Assembly (NCBI GenBank): GCA_026929865.2
Contig: CM049417.1
Coordinates: forward strand, 19,721,001-19,785,000
From: Hyperoplus lanceolatus
Taxonomy: Eukaryota; Chordata; Actinopteri; Uranoscopiformes; Ammodytidae
Direction of reading: 5' to 3'
DNA: 64,000 nucleotides
Shown: positions 4,008 through 61,788 of the stretch, one piece after another
How positions within the stretch are numbered: the stretch's first letter is position 1
Layout of the letters: every line of letters begins with the position of its first letter
Translations under genes and position numbers: made by a program
The notes under the pieces: model-generated
Told to the model about the DNA's origin: nothing
Seen by the model: only the letters and a program-made list of their open reading frames with translations
Databases searched by the model: none

Positions 4008-5249
4008 GGGGAGAACGGGGGAATCTGAGGCATCGGGTAATGTGAGCCGCCCCCTGTATCTAGGCAACGGAAAAGATTTGTGGTCATGTGAGATATATGT
4101 TTTCAAGCCCCTCTCATTTCCCCATGGCCCTGAAAGAGAGGACCTCATGGTGCAGTGGTAAGCATGTTTTTTTCACCAAAATAGGTATTTTGCATGTAAA
4201 AGTAAATGTTCTTGCTGTCAACTGCTGTGCCAAAGCAAATGTATTCACGTAGAAAAACTTCTATCATAGGTGTTGATGAACTACCAACATATGAAACCAT
4301 GTGATGCTGATAACTGAAGATTAGCCTGAAATGCTAAGAGAGGTAGTTTTTTCTCAAATTGTGGTGGTGGGGGAAAGTGAGCCAAATGCTGTGGGGGAAA
4401 GTGAGCCACTGTCTCACTTTCCCCCACGATGAGGCACAAGTTAAGTTTAGTCTTAAACATATGTTAATGTAATATTACATGACATGTTTTATTTTAATGT
4501 CATACACATTGTAGAAAAGCCATCATGCCAAGGAAATACACCAGGAAGACGACCTGGGGCAACCACACGGAAAGGGCACCTTCTCATCTTTTCCTGTAAC
4601 CTTCAAGGCTGGAATGTAGAGTAGGCCTAGTTGTAGAGTATGACAGGCTGATGTTATAATCCAGTTAGGCCTTCTCCTGTGTTCTGAGTCCCAGGCTGTT
4701 CTCGCTGGTTCTGATTTTCCTATGCTTTGACCCCCAGACACTAGCTGGCTCTAAGGGTCCTGTGTTCTGACCCCCAGACTGTGTTCTAATCTAACTGATT
4801 CTATCTTTCATTTGAATCTTATTATTAATTATAATTATAATATGTTGTATTTGATTTTGTTAAGAGTTACTTTCAAGTGTTTAGAAAATGTGCTTTGCTT
4901 AATTGACCAAACCTCATCATTATTTTACTAGTCCGACATTAGTTCTGGAATGTGTGGCTAGCTTTCAGGATTCTTACTGTTACAATATGTGTTGTTATGG
5001 TAGTTTCAGAGTGGAAAAAGTAAGTGGATCAGTTTACCCCACAGCTGGGGTAAAGTGAGCCACATGACAACTTTTTTTTAAAACAATCATATTTTAACTG
5101 CCCTTTGTCTTTCTTGTAATTCTGCTAATGCCCATTTCTAGGAAACATCCTGAATTAATGGGAAATGTGTACAGTTGAGTGATACATCATTGTAGCTCGC
5201 TTAGAGGGGAGCAAATGTAAAAAGGGGCTCAGATTACCCCGTTCTCCCC
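4008..5249 (+). mobile_element. Pogo-type (Tc1/mariner superfamily) DNA transposon, deletion derivative
   Basis: Inverted ends GGGGAGAACGGGG at 4008 and CCCCGTTCTCCCC ending at 5249, with similarity continuing for about 25 bases, are flanked by TA on each side (4006-4007 and 5250-5251), the target duplication of Tc1/mariner/pogo elements. The end-proximal motif GTGAGCC next to a G- or A-rich run recurs inside the element near 4041, 4379, 4401 and 5056, and once inverted near 4411. A pogo-like transposase start codon region survives at 4525-4599 but the body of the gene is gone. The element is therefore non-autonomous. A relative with similar architecture lies at 61036-62159. Confidence 0.75.
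4525..4599 (+). pseudogene. N-terminal remnant of a pogo/jerky-like transposase
   Basis: Twenty-four codons and a stop encode MPRKYTRKTTWGNHTERAP followed by SHLFL. The MPRxYxRKTxxG opening is typical of the N-terminus just before the psq-type helix-turn-helix of pogo-like transposases. After the PS residues the frame leaves the family and stops; no DDE catalytic core is visible between here and the right end of the element at 5249. This supports assignment of the surrounding TA-flanked element to the pogo lineage, and shows that the loss is a large internal deletion. Assignment is by recognition of the short motif, not by a database search. Confidence 0.55.
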
Positions 5250-5300
5250 TATGTCACATTTAACAGCAAACGAGACCATCAGTTCAAAGAATGCTATTTG

Positions 5301-6648
5301 GGTAACACTTTACAATAAGGTACACAAAATTGTAGTAGCTACTACATACCTACTACATAGTTTTTTTTTTTTTGCGCTACCTATGTGTTAGGTAGCACAA
5401 AAAAAAAAAACCCTATGTGTTACCTACTACATAGTTTGTTTGTTTTTTGCGCTACCTATGTGTTAGGTAGCACAAAAAAAAAACCCTATGTGTTACCTAC
5501 TACATAGTTTTTTTTTTGCGCTACCTATGTGTTAGGTAGCACAAAAAAAAAACCCTATGTGTTACCTACTACATAGTTTTTTTTTTTTTGCGCTACCTAT
5601 GTGTTAGGTAGCACAAAACAAAAAACCCCTATGTGTTACCTACTACATAGTTTTTTTTTTTGCGCTACCTATGTGTTAGGTAGCACAAAAAAAAAACCCT
5701 ATGTGTTACCTACTACATAGTTTTTTTTTTTTTGCGCTACCTATGTGTTAGGTAGCACAAAAAAAAAACCCTATGTGTTACCTACTACATAGTTTTTTTT
5801 TTTGCGCTACCTATGTGTTAGGTAGCACAAAAAAAACTAGTGGGTTTTTTTGCGCTACCTATGTGTTAGGTAGCACAAAAAAAAACCCCTATGTGTTACC
5901 TACTACATAGTTTTTTTTTTTGCGCTACCTATGTGTTAGGTAGCACAAAAAAAAACCCTATGTGTTAGGTAGCACATAGGGGTTTTTTTGTGCTACCTAT
6001 GTGTTAGGTAGCACAAAAAAAAACCCCTATGTGTTACCTACTACATAGTTTTTTTTTTTTGCGCTACCTATGTGTTAGGTAGCACAAAAAAAAACCCTAT
6101 GTGTTAGGTAGCACATAGGGGTTTTTTTTTTGTGCTACCTATGTGTTAGGTAGCACAAAAAAAAACCCTATGTGTTACCTACTACATAGTTTTTTTTTTT
6201 TGCGCTACCTATGTGTTAGGTAGCACAGAAAAAAACCCTATGTGTTACCTACTACATAGTTTTTTTTTTTTTGCGCTACCTATGTGTTAGGTAGCACAAA
6301 AAAAAAACCCTATGTGTTACCTACTACATAGTTTTTTTTTTTGCGCTACCTATGTGTTAGGTAGCACAAAAAAAAACCCTATGTGTTACCTACTACATAG
6401 TTTTTTTGCGCTACCTATGTGTTAGGTAGCACAAAAAAAAAACCCTATGTGCTACCTAACACATAGGGTTTTTTTTTGTGCTACCTAACACATAGGTAGC
6501 GCAAAAAAAAAAAACCTATGTAGTAGGTAACACATAGGGTTTTTTTTTTTGTGCTACCTAACACATAGGTAGCGCAAAAAAAAAAAAACTATGTAGTAGG
6601 TATGTAGTAGCTACTACAATTTTGTGTACCTTATTGTAAAGTGTTACC
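5301..6648. mobile_element. 8-bp-TSD inverted-repeat element filled with a tandem hairpin array (hAT-like)
   Basis: The ends are near-perfect inverted repeats of about 61 bases: GGTAACACTTTACAATAAGG at 5301 and its complement ending GTGTTACC at 6648, each extending inward through AATTGTAGTAGCTACTACA to TACTACATAG. The identical octamer GCTATTTG flanks it at 5293-5300 and 6649-6656, an 8-bp target duplication as made by hAT elements (P and Merlin types also make 8-9 bp). There is no coding capacity: the interior is an array of hairpin units. The GGTAACACTTTACAATAAGG end is, to my knowledge, common in fish genomes, but I cannot name the family with certainty. Confidence 0.85.
5362..6587. repeat. 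Tandem array of about 18 hairpin units with A/T-run linkers
   Basis: The unit is about 57-75 bases. It has four parts: CTATGTGTTACCTACTACAT, a T run of 7-13, the imperfect palindrome GCGCTACCTATGTGTTAGGT then AGCAC, and an A run of 6-10. Sixteen copies of the palindrome read in plus orientation, beginning near 5374, 5449, 5518, 5590, 5662, 5734, 5804, 5852, 5922, 5989, 6061, 6131, 6202, 6273, 6343 and 6408. After about 6440 the orientation flips for the last two (6478-6502, 6551-6575). The copies at 5989 and 6131 read GTGCTACC instead of GCGCTACC. Two units also have the first hairpin replaced by a longer palindrome (about 5957-5983 and 6097-6122). A and T runs flank each palindrome and extend its stem. 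Confidence 0.95.
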
Positions 6649-6656
6649 GCTATTTG

Positions 6657-18016: not shown

Positions 18017-18908
18017 CACTCACCGGCCACTTTATTAGGTGCACCTGATCAATGGCTTATAAAAACAAAAAGCTAATCAGCCAATCACATGGCAGCAATT
18101 TAATGCATTTAGGCATTTAGATATGGTCAAGACAATGTACTTAAGTCAAACCGATCAGAATGGGGAAGAAAGGGGGTTTAGGTGACTTTGAACATGGCAT
18201 GGTTGATGGTGCACGGCAGGATGGATCCATACTTTCATGTTGTTTACGCCAAATTCTGAACCTGCCATCTGAATGTCGCAACTGAAATTGAGACTCATCA
18301 GACCAGGCATGATTTTTCAATCTTCTATTGTCCAATATTGTTGATCCGGTGAGAATTGTAGCCTCATTTTCCTGTTTTTAGCTGACATGAGTGGCACCCA
18401 GTGGGGTCTTCTGTTGCTGTAGCTCATCTGCATCAAGGTTGGTTGTGTTTAGCATTCAGAGATGGTATTCTGCATACCCTGGTTGTAACGAGTGGTTATT
18501 TGAGTTACTGATGCCTTTCTATCATCTCGAACCAGTCTGCCCATCCTCCACTGACCTCTGACTTCAACAAGGCATTTTACGTCCACACAAATGACACTCA
18601 CTGGATATTTTTATATTTTTCAGACCATTCTCTGTAAACCCTAGAGATGGTTTAGAGTGACAATCCCAGTAGATAGGCAGTTTCTGAAATACTCAGACCA
18701 GCCCTCCTGGCACCCTCAACATTGCCATGTTCAAAGTCACTTAAAACCCCTTTCTACCCCATTATGTTGCTCGGTTTCAACCTCAATAAGTTGTCCCGCC
18801 CAGGTCTACATGCCTAAATGCATTGAGTTGCTGACATGTGATTGGCTGATTAGTTATGTGTTAACAAGAAAAATTAACCGCTGTGCCTAATAAAATGGCC
18901 GGTGAGTG
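18017..18908. mobile_element. Palindromised Tc1/mariner transposon derivative
   Basis: Ends CACTCACCGGCCACTTTATT at 18017 and its near complement ending at 18908 are flanked by TA (18015-18016, 18909-18910). Both ends carry the same 5'-end sequence of the element, including the CCAATCACATG stretch and the codons for GDFEHG, in opposite orientations (about 18017-18222 plus strand, about 18690-18908 minus strand). The normal 3' end and the distal catalytic region are missing. The element is thus an inverted end duplication with a deletion, about 892 bases long, and cannot encode transposase. Confidence 0.85.
18215..18740 (-). pseudogene. Tc1-like transposase remnant (middle region)
   Basis: On the minus strand, from about 18740 down, the text follows a Tc1-like transposase: a GDFEHG-coding start, helix-turn-helix-like text, then the start of the catalytic domain (about 18335 down to 18217) reading HAWSDESQFQLRHSDGRF then IWRKQHESMDPSC. 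WSDES carries the first catalytic Asp. Frame breaks and stops lie upstream of that block. The coding text ends abruptly at about 18217, where GGATCCATCCTGCC joins the inverted copy of the 5' end, so the second Asp and third acidic residue are lost. Not functional. Confidence 0.75.
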
Positions 18909-38075: not shown

Positions 38076-38460
38076 TTAAAAGGGAAACAAGAACGATTTA
38101 AAAGAGCTGAGAGTCTCAGCGGACCTCAGACTCTCTGGCAATCCGTTCCAGACATTGGGCACATAAACGCTGAATGCCGCCTCTCCCTGTTTAGTCCTAG
38201 CTCTGGGGACTTTTAAAAGACCTGTCCCAGACAACCTAAGGGCTCTGGGCGGCTCATAACGTATCAGCAGATCAGTAATATATTTTGGCCCTAAACCATT
38301 TAAGGCTTTGTAGACCATCATCAATATTTTAAAATCAATTCTTTGAGTGACAGGAAGCCAGGGCAAAGACCTAAGAACTGGGGTAATGTGATCTACTTTT
38401 TTGGTCCTAGTGAGGACTCGAGCAGCAGCGTTCTGAATTAGCTGAAGTTGTCTGATTAAT
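38076..38460 (-). pseudogene. LINE L2 ORF2 C-terminal part, in the shifted frame
   Basis: After the poly-A slip the same protein continues in another frame: LIRQLQLIQNAAARVLTRTK, then LPWLPVTQRIDFKILMMVYK, then ALNGLGPKYI and the C-terminal VWNGLPESLRSAETLSSFKS ending FLFPF. This order (QLIQNAAAR, LPWLPV, WNGLP, FKSFL) is characteristic of the L2/CR1 C-terminal region. One base restores continuity between the two parts, so this is a single young-looking lesion; an assembly or sequencing slip in a homopolymer is also possible. Confidence 0.85.
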
Positions 38461-38466
38461 TTTTTT

Positions 38467-40375
38467 AGGAAGGCCTGCAAAGACACTATTACAGTAGTCA
38501 AGTCTACTAAAAATAAATGCATGGACACGTTTTTCTAAGTCCTGCTGAGATATTAGCCCTTTAATTCTCAATATATTTTTAAGGTGGTAGTAGGCTGACT
38601 TAGTAATTGATTTAATGTGTTTTTTGAAATTCAAGTCGGAATCTATCACTACTCCAAGATTTCTAGCTTGGTGTGTGCTTTCTAACATAACAGATTTAAG
38701 CTGTGCGCTGACTTTTGATTGTTCATCCCTGGCACCAAAGACAATTACTTCAGTTTTGTCGCTGTTTAATTGAAGAAAGTTTTGGCACATCCAGTCATTG
38801 ATTTGTTCAATGCATTTACTTAGTGCTTGAATCGGACTATAGTCTCCTGGTGATATGGTTATGTAAATGTGTGTGTCGTCTGCATAATTATGGTAGCATA
38901 ATTTGTTTTTGTTCATAATCTGAGCTAGCGGTAGCATGTATATGTTAAACAGAAGAGGCCCAAGAATGGAACCCTGGGGGACCCCGCATGTAATATTTGT
39001 CCGCTCAGATGTCCGCTCAGATGTGAAATTGCCTATTGACACATAGTAGTCTCTTTCCTTTAAGTATGATTCAAACCAGTTTAGTACAGTTCCAGAAAGT
39101 CCAACCCAGTTTGCAAGTCGATCTAGCAATATGCTGTGGTCAACTGTGTCGAACGCAGCACTGAGATCCAATAAAACTAATACAGAGCTTTTGCCACTGT
39201 CTGTGTTTAAGTGGATGTCATTGAGGACCTTAACCAGAGCAGTCTCAGTGCTGTGGTGTTGTCGAAAACCTGACTGAAAGACATCAAAGCAGTTATTCAT
39301 TGCTAAGTAGTTATTTAGCTGATGATGAACAGCTCTTTCAATGATCTTGCTTAAAAATGGTAGGTTGGATATCGGCCTATAATTGTTCATGAGTGATGTA
39401 TCTAGATTTTTCTTTTTTAGGAGTGGCTTGATGACAGCTGTTTTCAGGGCCTGTGGGAATACACCAGTGCGAAGGGACATATTGACAATTTCTAGGACAT
39501 ATGAGGCCATAGAGCTAAAAACAGTTTTAAAGAAGCCTGTGGGCAGAATGTCAAGGCAACAGGAGGAGGAGTTCAAGTGTTGTATAATGTCATCCAGGTT
39601 TTTCTTGTTTATCAGAAAAAACTCTGTCATGGCATCTGAATTTGTTTTAAATGGGTACAGAGATAAAACATATCTTGAACCTGGTATTGATGCAGTGACA
39701 GCTTGTCTTATTTTATGAATTTTCTCAGCAAAGAAGGAGGCAAATTCATTGCAGGCCCTCGTGGAAAGATGCTCAGACGCTACTGACACAGGAGGGTTTG
39801 TTAGCCTGTCAACAGCAGCAAACAGGGCATGTGCATTGTTGCTGTTTTTGGTGATGATGTCAGAGAAGAAAGACTGTCTTGCATTTCTTAGTTCTAGGTT
39901 AAACGTGCGTAGTTTCTCTTTGAAGATGTTATAGTGAACATTTAGATTTGTTTTTCGCCACCTGCGTTCTGCTTTACGGCACTCTCTTTTTTTCAATTCT
40001 GACCTGAGGGGTATTTCTCTAGGGAGACCTGCAATAGCATTGATAACATTTGGAATTTTTGAGTTGAAGTTACATACAAGCTCATTAACTGAGATACAGG
40101 GGAGGAGCGGGGACAGAGAAAATGCCTGGATAAATTGTTCACTCGTGTTTTCAGTAATATACCGTTTTTTGATAACCTTTGTTTTTGCAGTTGTGTGCAA
40201 AGATATTGTACTCCCAAAAAACAAACAGGAATGGTCGGAGAGACCCACATCAGACACTAAAAGGTTTGAAATGTCCAGGCCCTTTGAAATGAATAAGTCC
40301 AGGGTGTGACCTTTGTTATGTGTAGGCTGGTTTACGTGTTGAGAGAGTCCAAAAAGATGTCCAAAAAGACGTCCA
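38467..40375 (-). pseudogene. LINE L2 ORF2: endonuclease tail and reverse transcriptase (5' truncated)
   Basis: Numbering from the methionine at 40485, the open frame is 692 codons, but homology begins at about residue 45. Residues 45-90 are the endonuclease tail (FGLSQHVNQPTHNKGHTLDL and the SDH near 83). The reverse transcriptase spans about 345-640: NYRPISNLPFLSKIIERA at 368, motif A LLDLSAAFDTVDH at 438 with catalytic Asp 440, GVPQGS at 501, and the catalytic YADD at 534-537. TSERTSER at 488-495 is a 12-base tandem duplication. The true frame is left at the seven-base poly-T at 38460-38466, after AGLPKK; the residues that follow are frameshifted. A full L2 ORF2 would have about 200 more N-terminal residues. 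The element cannot retrotranspose as it stands. Several plus-strand open frames here are its shadows. Confidence 0.85.
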
Positions 40376-40485
40376 AAAACAAGTTGTCTCTCCACTTTGC
40401 AAAAGGCACTGTCTTTTAAAAACCTTGAACGGTGGCATTCACAAAAGCACTGCATTTCATTCCGCTTTCCACTTGAGCTAGACAA

Positions 40486-42284
40486 TTCCCAGCATCAATG
40501 GCTCTTTAGGAAAAATGTAGAGGCAAAACATCTTGAATGGCAGCCACGAAAACAGCAACAGCACAAGCCCACTTAGAGAAGATCTAAATAGGAACACAAA
40601 GTGAATGTGACTGATTCAACAAGGGTCCCCTTTGCGAAATCCCTACTGCTTTTTTGGCGGTGACATTTTTCTCTATCCTGGAAATAATTGTGACTCTCGG
40701 CTGTCAGGTCGGCTCTGTCAATGCACTGTTAAAAGGCAGTGGTTTGAGTTGTGCAGAAAACACCTATGATAGTAACCGGGCATCACCTTGACAATCCTCC
40801 CTCTGCTCCATAAGCTCCACAAGGATGCATCATGCAATACAGTAGTAGTATGGTGGATGCCAAATATGGAGTTTTCGTGAAAAAAAAAATTACAATTAGG
40901 ATTGATATTTTAATCAATGACTGTGTTAGTGGCAGAGCTGAAATGGTAGGGGTACTATCATATTAAGGATGGAATAATATGATGTGATTGTTAGAGGAAC
41001 ACATTTGAGAACACTGTAATGGCTAAATTGCTATGTTCATTTACATGAGCATAACGCAGTCATTAGCATGTTCCTTCAGAAAAGAATCATCCTATCACAT
41101 GAGCACAACCCTCACTGATTCTTAAAATTAAAATAAAATTAGGCAAAATTAGTAGCACATCTTTATATATAGAATAATAGAATGGCATGTATACCACAAC
41201 AAGTGATGTATCATGATGCATTGGGCAGAAACCAAGCAAGTCCATACAATCAAAGACATTCAGCACCCCCATAAAGGCAGAATGAAAAGGACCGTTGATA
41301 AATAGCAATCTTTTGCTACTTTTCAGCCATAAGATTGTCAGTCGAATCGGTATCCTTACATTGAATTGTCGATTTATTTTGGGTCCCCTTCTGAATTGCT
41401 TTTTCATGTTGCCATATGGAGTGGATTGTACATTTCAGAGCAAGCTGACCAAGTTTGAAGCACAACCCCAGCATTGTGCATCTTATTTCTGCTGGATATG
41501 TACAGTTAGAGCAAGCGTACTGTAACCCTCAATGTACTTTGACTTCCCTTTGCTTAAAAAAATATTCCCGCAATATATATATATATATATAGTGTCACAA
41601 GGTAACTGTTGAGTCTTTTGAAAAGCCTGCCTGGCTTTGATGAACAATGCCTGATGTTCTATCCCATCTTCTGGCATTCCCCTGGGGTCCAAGCCCCATC
41701 TCTTTGACCCTTTTCTCTCTCTCTTTCTCTCTATTTCAATCAAGGCTCACTCAGCTGTAACTGTCTTATTTCAGCTCGCTGACCCTCTGGGATGCTCTCA
41801 TTCCCATCACTGATACCTATACCTTTGATATTGTTGATCCCCACACAGGTATTGGAGATACATTTAAAACACAGGTATATATAGTCATAAATGACATAAC
41901 TATACATTATAACCACATATAGTATGAAAACTGGAATCTGCTATTTAAACACACCAGGCATTTATCCTGTTGCATGTAATAAAGAGCCGGCATGGAAAAC
42001 ACATTTGCCCACACAGTGACTGAATGCAATTCCATGTTGAGATAAATTGCCCTGCTCCAATTTAATGAATACAAAACATTTCCACATCGCACAGCATTGC
42101 AGTCTAAACATCCAAACAGACCATTTATTTAACAAAAGTCTAACGGAAATTGTCAGCTAAAAGGGGCAGCGTATACAAAACCAGGGATTTCCATGCCTTT
42201 ACGAGATGACATGCACAGAGGGCTCAAATAAGGTGCAGTGCGTTCTAAATATGTTTCCAAAAATGATAGTTCACTTAACCTTGT
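40486..42284. other. Non-coding stretch with a short (AT)n tract
   Basis: (AT)n at about 41572-41591. Nothing else recognised. Confidence 0.4.
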
Positions 42285-58490: not shown

Positions 58491-59079
58491 AAATGAATGA
58501 GCGGTAGCCTACTAAAACAAAGTTTACTTTGCCTCACCAGCATCATCAGATGACCATTATTCATCTGAAATAGTCATTATTTAAAACAACATAAACACAT
58601 TACCACATCGTGATCCATAACTAACTGCCATCTCTCGTTCATTTGCTTTGTGTGGGGACACATACTCGTTCAGCTCCGTGAGAGGTGACAATGGATCAAC
58701 TCATTGCAATCAGGTGTAGTTGATGCTGTGTCACTAACCACTCTCACCGAGCCGAAAAGAGTCCGGTGCCCTCACACTTTCAACACACGGACACGCACTA
58801 TATTGCTTCCTGATTATTTGAATCTTGCACGCCATGCACGAGCTAGAAAACAGCTTCACGACAGCTAGCGTCGTAAAAATACTACCGCTTTTGTTCAAAG
58901 GTGTCGCCAACGTGCCGACTTACTCATTGTAGCTTTAACTGTGTGCATTTTTGAAGAAGACATGGGCAAATGTCATCCATCGCTTATTAGCTTATCACAA
59001 ATACTGGGAGTCAATGGGAAGAATTGGCCTGCCTCCTCTGACTGTCAGAAGATACACATTATCAACATTTGTTTTAACC
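58491..59079. repeat. Probable old fish repeat, right part
   Basis: Text ending GTCGCCAACGTGCCGACTTA then CTCATTGTAGCTTTAA at about 58938 is a familiar fish repeat terminus (complement begins TTAAAGCTACAATGAGTAAG). It probably belongs to the same old element interrupted by the insertions at 55988-58345; the matching left end was not proven. Confidence 0.35.
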
Positions 59080-59082
59080 TTT

Positions 59083-59332
59083 ATTTCTACAGGTAAATTC
59101 CATTGAGACCGGAGACTCTTTTTCAAGGGAGACCTGTTCCTATTTACACGTTACCATTCACACACACATTCATACACCAAAAGCAGGCCAACTATCGACA
59201 TTCACACGAAGCAAGGTGGGTGAAGTGTCTTGCCCAAGGACACAAGAACCATGACAGAGGTGGCAGGACGGGTATTGAACCGCCAACCCTTCGATCATGA
59301 CCGACCCGCTCTCACCTGAGCCACAGTCACCC
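59083..59332 (-). mobile_element. tRNA-derived SINE (minus strand)
   Basis: On the minus strand box A TGGCTCAGGTG lies at 59313-59323 and box B GGTTCAATACC at 59271-59281, 42 bases apart edge to edge in order, as in a pol III promoter. The body contains the common SINE text GTGTCCTTGGGCAAGACACT and CACCCACCTTGC, and the 3' end reads GTCTCAATGGAATTTACCTG then TAGAAATAAAGG. No clear target duplication seen. The open plus-strand frame here is a shadow. Confidence 0.75.
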
Positions 59333-60724
59333 TAAACATCACTACACTGTCCTGTGTGCTTGTTAGGACTTGAGTATTTACCATTTGAATGTGCAAACCA
59401 CTGCAGATGTGATTGCCAGTAGGTCAACAAAATAAAACATCTGTGTTCACGAGATGCATGTCCACTTCCGGGTTTCCTTATGGTATGTATTGTATTCTAA
59501 AATAACAAAAGTACAAACAAATATAAAGCGCAACATAATGTGGTAAAAAAACAAGTCCCAATAAGCACAAAGGACAAGTTGAATAATGCTTTAAGCTAAG
59601 AGGTCTTTGCTCCAGCAATACATTGGACTGTATGGTTAGATAAAATCCCTGCTATCAGAAACAATAGATACACTCATTCATCCATGAAACCCTTTGTCAA
59701 GTGTCAAATTACAGACCAGCAAAAACAAAATCCATCCTTGGCCCTGCAAAATTCAGAATGATCTTTTTACTTTGAAGAGATTTTTGTTTAAACATGGTGA
59801 AGAATGAGAATTACCGGCTCGATGTGTGGTAAATAAATTTGTGATATTTCTCAAGATCTATAATATCCTGGGGTGTTTGGTATGCCGTCTATGACAGTGC
59901 ACAAACTATAACAGCCTCGAGCAGTAATACATAAATAGTAAAGGTGTGTTACCTGTGAGCAGCCAGTTGCATTTTCTTTCATTCTTCGTAATAAGTAAAA
60001 AGGGGATTTGTTTTTAAACCGTTTCACATGTTGTTAATTTAAAGTTACGCTTGTTTCTGTGCAAAACTGGATTGTATGTTTTGTCTCGTCCTTGTAATTG
60101 AGTTTATAACTAATAAGTGCACTTCCCTGTGTGGGGGTCTGACAGAGTGAAGAGACACAGACGGCAAAAGCCTTTAAGACGGCTGTGGAAATGCCAGCAA
60201 AGGGGAAACAGTATTTCAGGTCCCAGCAGATTTTTTTAAAAGGCCTTGATGATCCTTCCCCAGCTAAACTTGGGGATTATTTCCAGAGTTGGCAGTTCAT
60301 GGGGCTTGCATTGCAGGGAGGTGCTGAGGGCGAAAAGGCTTGACAGGAAGGCATTCTGCTGCCAATTAGTATCAATCGAGAAGGAAAATAAGGGCTGCAC
60401 TGTTGTAATTTTTTTCTTTTTTACACAGGGCTTATTTTTTTTCTCGCGGCTCCGCTCCTCCCATCACATTAGAGCTGTTTTTACCCGCCGTTATCTGAGT
60501 GATCAAACCTCTGAGCCATAACTCAATCTGTGACACGGTGTGCCCGATTAAACTACTTTGTGTGAAGTATTAATTTACGCTAAATTAGCTCTGTTGGAGA
60601 GAGATCTGGATCAGGGGACATTTTGAAATAGGGAGAAACACTGCAACTAAAAGTACAATGTATCTTATCTTATGGGTTGGCCCAGCACTACTTAATGGTG
60701 AATATGTATAGGACATGTTAGGGC
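59333..60724. other. Non-coding stretch, possible conserved noncoding element
   Basis: About 60130-60400 is unique-looking and not AT-decayed (CAAAAGCCTTTAAGACGGCT, GCAAAGGGGAAACAGTATTT). Nothing else recognised. Confidence 0.3.
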
Positions 60725-60976: not shown

Positions 60977-61440
60977 TGCCTCCATTCTAAAAACAAATTA
61001 CTCCTGAGTTATTTATTTTATTTTCATTAACAGTAGGGGAAGGTGGGGTGATTTGTGCATTTTGGAAGTTGCAAAACCCATTGTTTCTAGAAAACCGTGG
61101 AAGAAATTGGAAATGTGACCACATATTTAAGAAGAGCCATCCATTTGACTCATCCTGTAAAGAAGGGAGACACAAGGAATAAGATATAAGCACATTTAAG
61201 CTCAAAAAACTGTGTTTTGCCTTTCAAAGTAAAATTTCCATGATCAAGGTTTTTTGATTATTGTGTCTGAACAATTATAGACACGTTTGAAAACATTTGA
61301 CACATGTTTTAGTGCTTTGGTATGCTACACTTTGAGTCTATATAATTAGCACAATGTCAACCCTAAATTGCTGCATCATGCCTATTATCCAAAATTCTGG
61401 GGATGGGGTGATTTGTGCGCAAGGGCCTGGGTGAGTTATA

Positions 61441-61788
61441 AGTAAGTAAGTAAGTAAAATGTATTTATAAAAGCACATTTATGACAGTTTGCACTGTCCA
61501 AAGTGCTGTACATAGTGCATTCAGTAGGTAAACAATGAAGGTAAAATAACAATAACCAAAATAAAAGACGTAAAGCCCATACATCCACATAAACACAGAT
61601 AGTAGTGCAGAGGTAAGTAAGTAGTGCAGAGGTTAATGGGGAGGAAACACCAGGGTGTACATATGGGTTTGGAGCCTTGATTTAAAGGCAGAAATGTAGG
61701 GGGAATCACATTTGTCAGGTGGCAGTTGGTTCCACAAGCACGGAGCAACTAGTGCAAAGTACATTTCTGAGAGTTGTGCCAGTGGCAT
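61441..61788 (-). mobile_element. Nested L2/CR1-type LINE 3' fragment
   Basis: On the minus strand an open frame from 61788 to the stop at 61633-61635 ends EMYFALVAPCLWNQLPPDKC then DSPYISAFKSRLQTHMY and TLVFPPH. The LWNQLPP and FKSRLQTHMY words are the C-terminus of L2/CR1-type ORF2. A 3' UTR follows (CAGCACTTTGGACAGTGC, GCTTTTATAAATACATTTTA) and ends in (CTTA)4 at 61441-61456. The 5' boundary overlaps ambiguously with the transposase remnant on the opposite strand. Confidence 0.7.

Follow-up and report, generated by a model that had tools for sequence, protein, structure and literature searches.

The window, as we call the whole stretch of DNA analysed here, comprises 64,000 nucleotides of contig CM049417.1 from the fish Hyperoplus lanceolatus. 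At 5301..6648 it contains an element of 1,348 bp that consists of inverted ends and a hairpin array alone and is bordered by a perfect 8-bp target-site duplication (TSD), GCTATTTG, at 5293..5300 on the left and 6649..6656 on the right (no strand assigned to the element or to either duplication), just as an earlier interpretation made from the letters, hereafter the sequence-only reading, had described. The left inverted end (5301..5409, plus strand) is matched exactly by the right one (6540..6648, minus strand) over 109 bp, and the first mismatch falls at position 110; the length of 61 bp originally given for these ends was too short, as it stops at the first T-run. The outer 60 bp of the left end are the terminal inverted repeat (TIR) found family-wide, the family inverted ends being GGTAACACTTTACAATAAGG, and its remainder is made up of the first T-run, a K hairpin and an A-run. 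The proposed identity of the element as a transposon is supported.

The interior is composed only of alternating hairpins joined by A- and T-runs, as previously noted. Cores of the first type, K (GCTACCTATGTGTTAGGTAGC), are present in 18 identical copies without a single mismatch (16 direct and two inverted; shuffle mean 0.00 in 100 shuffles), and alternate with 16 second hairpins, namely 12 J, one inverted J, two P and one inverted P. We describe the array by its links: X comprises the right arm of K, an A-run and the left arm of J, Y comprises the right arm of J, a T-run and the left arm of K, and lower-case x and y are their inverses, so that the second hairpin takes the form of either an imperfect J (X then Y) or a near-perfect palindrome P (X then x). 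In the long arm (5361..6442, plus strand) the K cores, 16 in number and all direct, are interleaved with J or P hairpins, the orientation of the array flips at an inverted P palindrome (6443..6468, an Xx centre), and the short arm (6469..6602, minus strand), which extends to the inner TIR edge, contains a single inverted J and two K cores, both inverted. Near-perfect P palindromes, in which an inverted X replaces the Y link, are located at 5956..5982 and 6095..6121, and at 5837..5844 a second hairpin is truncated, with only CTAGTGGG left between an A-run and a T-run (no strand assigned to the flip point, the P hairpins or the remnant). The initial estimate of about 18 hairpins holds for the main type, the K cores, but not for the total, which by hand count is 34 plus the one truncated remnant; the flip in orientation reported for the final two units was confirmed, as were the converted second hairpins, at 5958, 6097 and 6445. 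The secondary-structure fold suggested as a check gave a DNA folding energy of −38.5 kcal/mol for a 152-nt stretch, far stronger than its shuffles (−13.3 ± 2.7 kcal/mol in 200 shuffles; z −9.3); the RNA fold of the entire element reached −778.6 kcal/mol, a value that has no shuffle control at that length. Neither the hairpin array nor its folding is a product of chance.

Several other features were recorded in the window. A LINE-type open reading frame of 695 aa (38410-40494, minus strand) contains a reverse transcriptase domain (PF00078, E 4.4e-37) and has its best named matches in the teleosts Xyrichtys and Chaenocephalus (71-73% identity), most of the other named matches being teleost as well. 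The SINE-like repeat at 59068-59333 is 83-89% identical to several of the loci retrieved in the family search. At 18064-18862 there is a second inverted repeat, with arms of 83 and 69 nt and 80-83% complementarity, which is probably an old inverted-repeat element. No Rfam match was obtained in the window at gathering scores.

The genome (806.7 Mb in 527 contigs) was searched with the 61-bp end, and among the best 40 of 908 candidates that were scored we found at least 41 matches, on contigs C1-C3 and mostly as inverted pairs; a search with the whole element gave matches on many contigs among the best 40 of 700 candidates scored. We analysed 60 loci, comprising the window, 23 loci chosen by exact TIRs, 35 by array similarity and one by chance; the sample is therefore biased, 23 loci having been picked for exact TIRs and 35 for likeness to the long array of the window. 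Both ends were present in the retrieved stretch at 52 of the 60 loci and not at the remaining eight. The two-ended copies carry 42 perfect 8-bp TSDs, no two of which are the same, five with one mismatch and five with two or more. The shortest of them measures 246 bp and the longest 3,159 bp, with 51 different lengths among the 52, and each array is unique, also after the A/T runs are collapsed or the arrays are reduced to link strings. The search with the terminus that the sequence-only reading had recommended thus recovered a family in which every two-ended copy (52/52) carries the array; copies with the same TIR and unrelated interiors, which would have spoken against that reading, were not seen, one copy holding extra sequence in addition to its array. 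The element of the window is one copy of a young, non-coding family, in which each arm consists of repeated hairpins; the copies are young because their ends are near-identical. MITEs are short, non-coding elements of high copy number that descend from larger autonomous ones; in the family, 51 of the 52 copies consist of ends and array alone and no stop-to-stop frame longer than 105 codons is present in any of the 52, and a parent element was not found.

Insertion can be followed at one site. A sister element of 1,782 bp (L072) has GGAAAAAG on both sides and lies in a repeat that is also found in the window, at 4533-5252, where it is unoccupied. Comparison of these paralogues places the empty target site at 5013..5020 of the window (no strand assigned), with a single GGAAAAAG that is duplicated around the sister element, from which we conclude that the latter was inserted; the two copies of the repeat also differ by a separate 52 bp just downstream. 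These data bear on the possibility that the array is a misassembled, hairpin-rich locus. Palindromic A/T-rich arrays are indeed difficult to sequence, but such arrays are found at dozens of loci, spread over many contigs, that differ in flanks, TSD and array, an empty-site paralogue exists, and arrays of 0.25-3.2 kb would fit within long reads. As dozens of loci, each with its own TSD, show the array, we regard an assembly artefact as highly improbable.

Individual loci showed further peculiarities. The exceptional copy with other sequence (L027, C1:26334706-26337500) is chimeric, with a normal left arm, a divergent right end and a perfect 8-bp TSD, and its interior contains a SINE-like stretch that is also present in its left flank, as though the stretch had been picked up in the course of repair. 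The longest two-ended copy (L049, C9:22358700-22362800; 3,159 bp) changes orientation as + − + −, and its flanks match each other over 72 bp in inverted orientation. In another locus (L024, C2:8603609-8606500) a truncated arm joins a second left end directly, inside a J hairpin. Copies 98-99% identical to the repeat at 61033-61631 of the window abut arrays at a site in J, next to TAG, at two loci that each have only one TIR (L066, near 544, and L083, near 1527), which suggests that a repeat of this type may have been inserted into, or may have replaced, array sequence twice. Seven loci (L040-L046) proved to be copies of a SINE-like repeat only.

The copy in the window is not a lone oddity; it belongs to a family with foldback architecture. 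In 47 of the 52 copies the hairpins point inwards from each end and the K orientation switches once, at a varying position, while four copies have three switches and one, the chimeric copy, has none. The difference between direct-to-inverted and inverted-to-direct steps, when counted on links, equals 1 in only 32 of the 52 elements, in part because some links are unclassified. The numbers of units in the two arms (for example 1/18, 16/2 and 23/5) are not positively correlated (left versus right r −0.20, n=52). Foldback elements are recognised by long inverted arms of tandem subrepeats, by arms that vary separately in repeat number and by TSDs of about 8-10 bp, and all three are found here: inward arrays with a single switch in 47/52 copies, r −0.20 between the arms of the 52 copies, and perfect 8-bp TSDs in 42/52.

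The arrays of the 52 elements obey a simple grammar. They contain 2,213 links, of which 165 were unclassified; from 2,161 adjacent link pairs we set aside 293 with an unclassified link, leaving 1,868. Most of these alternate (YX 390, XY 384, xy 332 and yx 318), others change orientation (Xx 213, xX 197, Yy 25 and yY 0), and only nine break the alternation (XX 4, xx 4 and Yx 1). No mirror palindrome (y then Y) was therefore observed among the 1,868 classified pairs of the 52 elements. Coding by J arms places the 25 Yy steps in 24 elements, so a K hairpin can serve as the centre as well. Perfect palindromes appear to have taken the place of imperfect hairpins, the change running one way only.

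As to the origin of the units, J is covered by 12 nt common to P and the 14-nt inner TIR edge, with an overlap of 2 nt, which bears out the earlier proposal that the array contains TIR-derived sequence; P and K have 19 nt in common. J may be read as the junction created by duplication of a block reaching from the TIR edge to the centre, and the P hairpins inside the arms may have arisen by hairpin correction, the succession of these steps being a matter of inference; the fusion is not the only reading of J, because J may predate P. A composition of inner TIR edge plus part of a hairpin fits slippage combined with template switching in hairpins. The smallest copy (L009, 246 bp, links Y X x y) has a perfect TSD and no J, a form that may represent either the appearance of the progenitor or a product of late deletion; in the history that we prefer, the family would descend from a short progenitor resembling this copy.

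The unit had also been said to carry the terminal octamer of the element, GTGTTACC. The match is present, but taken alone it is weak evidence of descent, because it is explained by the J junction, where GTGTTA adjoins the CC of the TIR edge. The same octamer could be taken to indicate that the repeats are kept by selection as multiple transposase-binding sites, with long arrays transposing better. Of 20,000 shuffled units just 32 contain it, and Galileo repeats are reported to hold secondary transposase-binding sites (PMC3573991). However, the octamer was chosen after the fact and is situated on the J junction, 2,499 of 20,000 shuffled units contain at least one 8-mer from the outermost 46 nt of the TIR, and the 246-bp copy has a perfect TSD yet no J. 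Selection for binding sites therefore seems to us unlikely to explain the arrays.

The TIRs have changed little. In 29 elements picked by array similarity we counted 0.172 edits per 60 bp of TIR, with 50 exact ends out of 58, and in the other 23 elements 42 of 46 ends were exact, where two outlying ends, with 16 and five edits, account for the mean of 0.5. As the TIRs are near-identical and the arrays all differ, array change must be fast relative to substitution in the ends. The order of variant units, determined in 16 elements, is common to loci beyond what is expected from shuffles (none of 100 shuffles reached the observed level; z >3 in 11 of 120 pairs), which means that transposition hands on the arrays at least in part. 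Growth by slippage, as put forward by the sequence-only reading, or by aberrant copying fits the data, in which unit order is partly common to loci.

Arrays could alternatively be locus-specific satellites, merely seeded by transposition and altered in place after insertion by slippage or unequal crossing-over. Second-hairpin units were indeed slightly closer within than between the 52 elements (3.555 versus 3.704; 0/200 permutations), and some change may therefore occur in place; however, the effect is only about 4%, it is weaker for K units (1.287 versus 1.318; 19/200 permutations), and in the first 17 elements neither class of unit showed it (460 and 66 of 500). Ordered variants common to loci mean that arrays travel with the element, and simple crossing-over leaves the absence of yY from the 1,868 classified pairs unexplained. 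Change confined to the insertion sites is, in our opinion, quite unlikely to be the main process.

The lengths of the A/T runs on the two sides of a hairpin are weakly correlated in imperfect K (r 0.175, n=575; 0/2,000 permutations) and imperfect J hairpins (r 0.165, n=594; 0/2,000 permutations), and no correlation was found in perfect K palindromes (r 0.084, n=210; 438/2,000 permutations) or perfect P palindromes (r 0.024, n=186; 1,486/2,000 permutations). Perfect palindromes that were templated should have matching run lengths, and these do not, so recent copying of runs on a hairpin template is unsupported; fast drift of run length could hide such matching. Template switching or slippage in hairpins is, we infer, the best reading of array change.

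We consider it probable that the elements form a non-autonomous family of foldback-type cut-and-paste transposons, the arrays of which are altered by miscopying of hairpins and then carried onward. Each copy would follow the same plan, with a 60-bp TIR, n hairpin units in one arm, a single change of orientation, m inverted units in the other arm and a closing TIR, and would be mobilised by a transposase acting in trans that makes 8-bp target duplications. During replication or gap repair, a polymerase would slip between units and switch template inside hairpins, gaining or losing K+J units separately in each arm, shifting the point at which orientation switches, and rewriting imperfect second hairpins into perfect ones, the direction being that suggested by the link counts; the altered arrays would then be carried to new sites by transposition. 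In a bolder version, the array would be rewritten whenever the element transposes and the gap is repaired, with one-way conversion of hairpins (Y to inverted X) and switching of template within them giving a new array at essentially every jump, so that the family would be a mobile tandem repeat that mutates itself; this is possible but in our judgement doubtful. If it were true, array structure would record both a transposition tree and the errors of hairpin repair in a living vertebrate.

The source of the transposase was sought among known genes. The 8-bp TSDs and GGTAACAC ends fit several superfamilies. TSDs of hAT elements are biased towards the consensus nTnnnnAn. This bias was not seen here, as the consensus fits only five of the 42 perfect TSDs, with T at position 2 in 11 and A at position 7 in 12. 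Eight matches to MULE genes were detected in the genome, and in their surroundings (3.1-3.3 kb around the eight, 5.5 kb around one) the family TIR had only 5-edit matches, at about the rate of the window. There are 19 matches to P-type genes (PF21787), the type that would be expected for the FB/Galileo lineage of the P superfamily, and no match to the family TIR was seen in the 5.5-kb stretches around two of them (L094 and L095). No autonomous partner was found at the MULE and P-type loci inspected, none of which has the family TIR, and a transposase would presumably be supplied in trans.

Foldback architecture as such is already familiar. The FB elements of Drosophila have inverted ends with internal direct repeats. 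Together with Galileo, FB and FB4 resemble the fish family in their long inverted ends, internal direct repeats, repeat numbers that differ between ends and high structural turnover, according to the available parts of the reports (PMC3573991, PMC4168063, PMC8277862): the F repeats of Galileo in D. mojavensis are about 210 bp long with up to three copies (PMC3573991), a Galileo copy of D. willistoni has repeats of about 140 bp (PMC4168063), and template switching is described in TIR elements including FB4 (PMC8277862). The likeness described is structural, and the fish family differs in that the array takes up nearly the entire element and has as its unit two hairpins linked by A/T runs. Tetris of Drosophila virilis, likewise a foldback element, contains within its TIR a tandem domain of variable copy number, makes TSDs of 8-10 bp, has a repeat that shares sequence with the outer TIR domain, and is not known to have an autonomous copy, from the available part of its description (PMC4079207); by the same partial description it differs in its TIR-220 repeats, in having only three structurally complete copies and in the lack of a described hairpin grammar.

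Short elements with variable internal tandem arrays are also represented by the Xenopus MITEs Xstir and miDNA4, as outlined in the available part of a review of transposon-derived satellites (PMC12628747), where a stem-and-loop mechanism is proposed for Xstir and miDNA4 is assigned to Tc1/mariner. Unlike these, the fish family has arrays of opposite orientation in both arms, usually with a single switch. Angel of zebrafish is, in the available text of that review (PMC12628747, citing Izsvak 1999), an inverted-repeat element of a fish with proposed hairpin-based amplification, and is set apart from the family by a description in which tandem hairpin arrays do not figure. No description of the element, or of a fish foldback of such design, was encountered among the matches listed from open-licence PMC, mostly as titles and the first parts of abstracts. 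The 20-mer of the TIR and the 19-nt K core had no exact matches in viral contigs, nor did the TIR pattern in prokaryote genomes, as is expected for a fish element.

Rearrangements are a known feature of foldback elements, and growth of their repeated arms has mostly been inferred. As each complete copy analysed has its own array and the grammar is simple, slippage, inversion and hairpin-templated correction can be counted at many loci, and the family could allow hairpin-driven instability to be measured in a vertebrate, its arrays being a natural record of the miscopying of hairpin DNA. The arrays may also serve as variable, dispersed markers in the source fish. A full-text literature search with the letters of the TIR gave no paper, and with shorter forms of it returned a genotyping primer for zebrafish ptpmt1 with 17 nt in common, a hint that related ends may exist in zebrafish.
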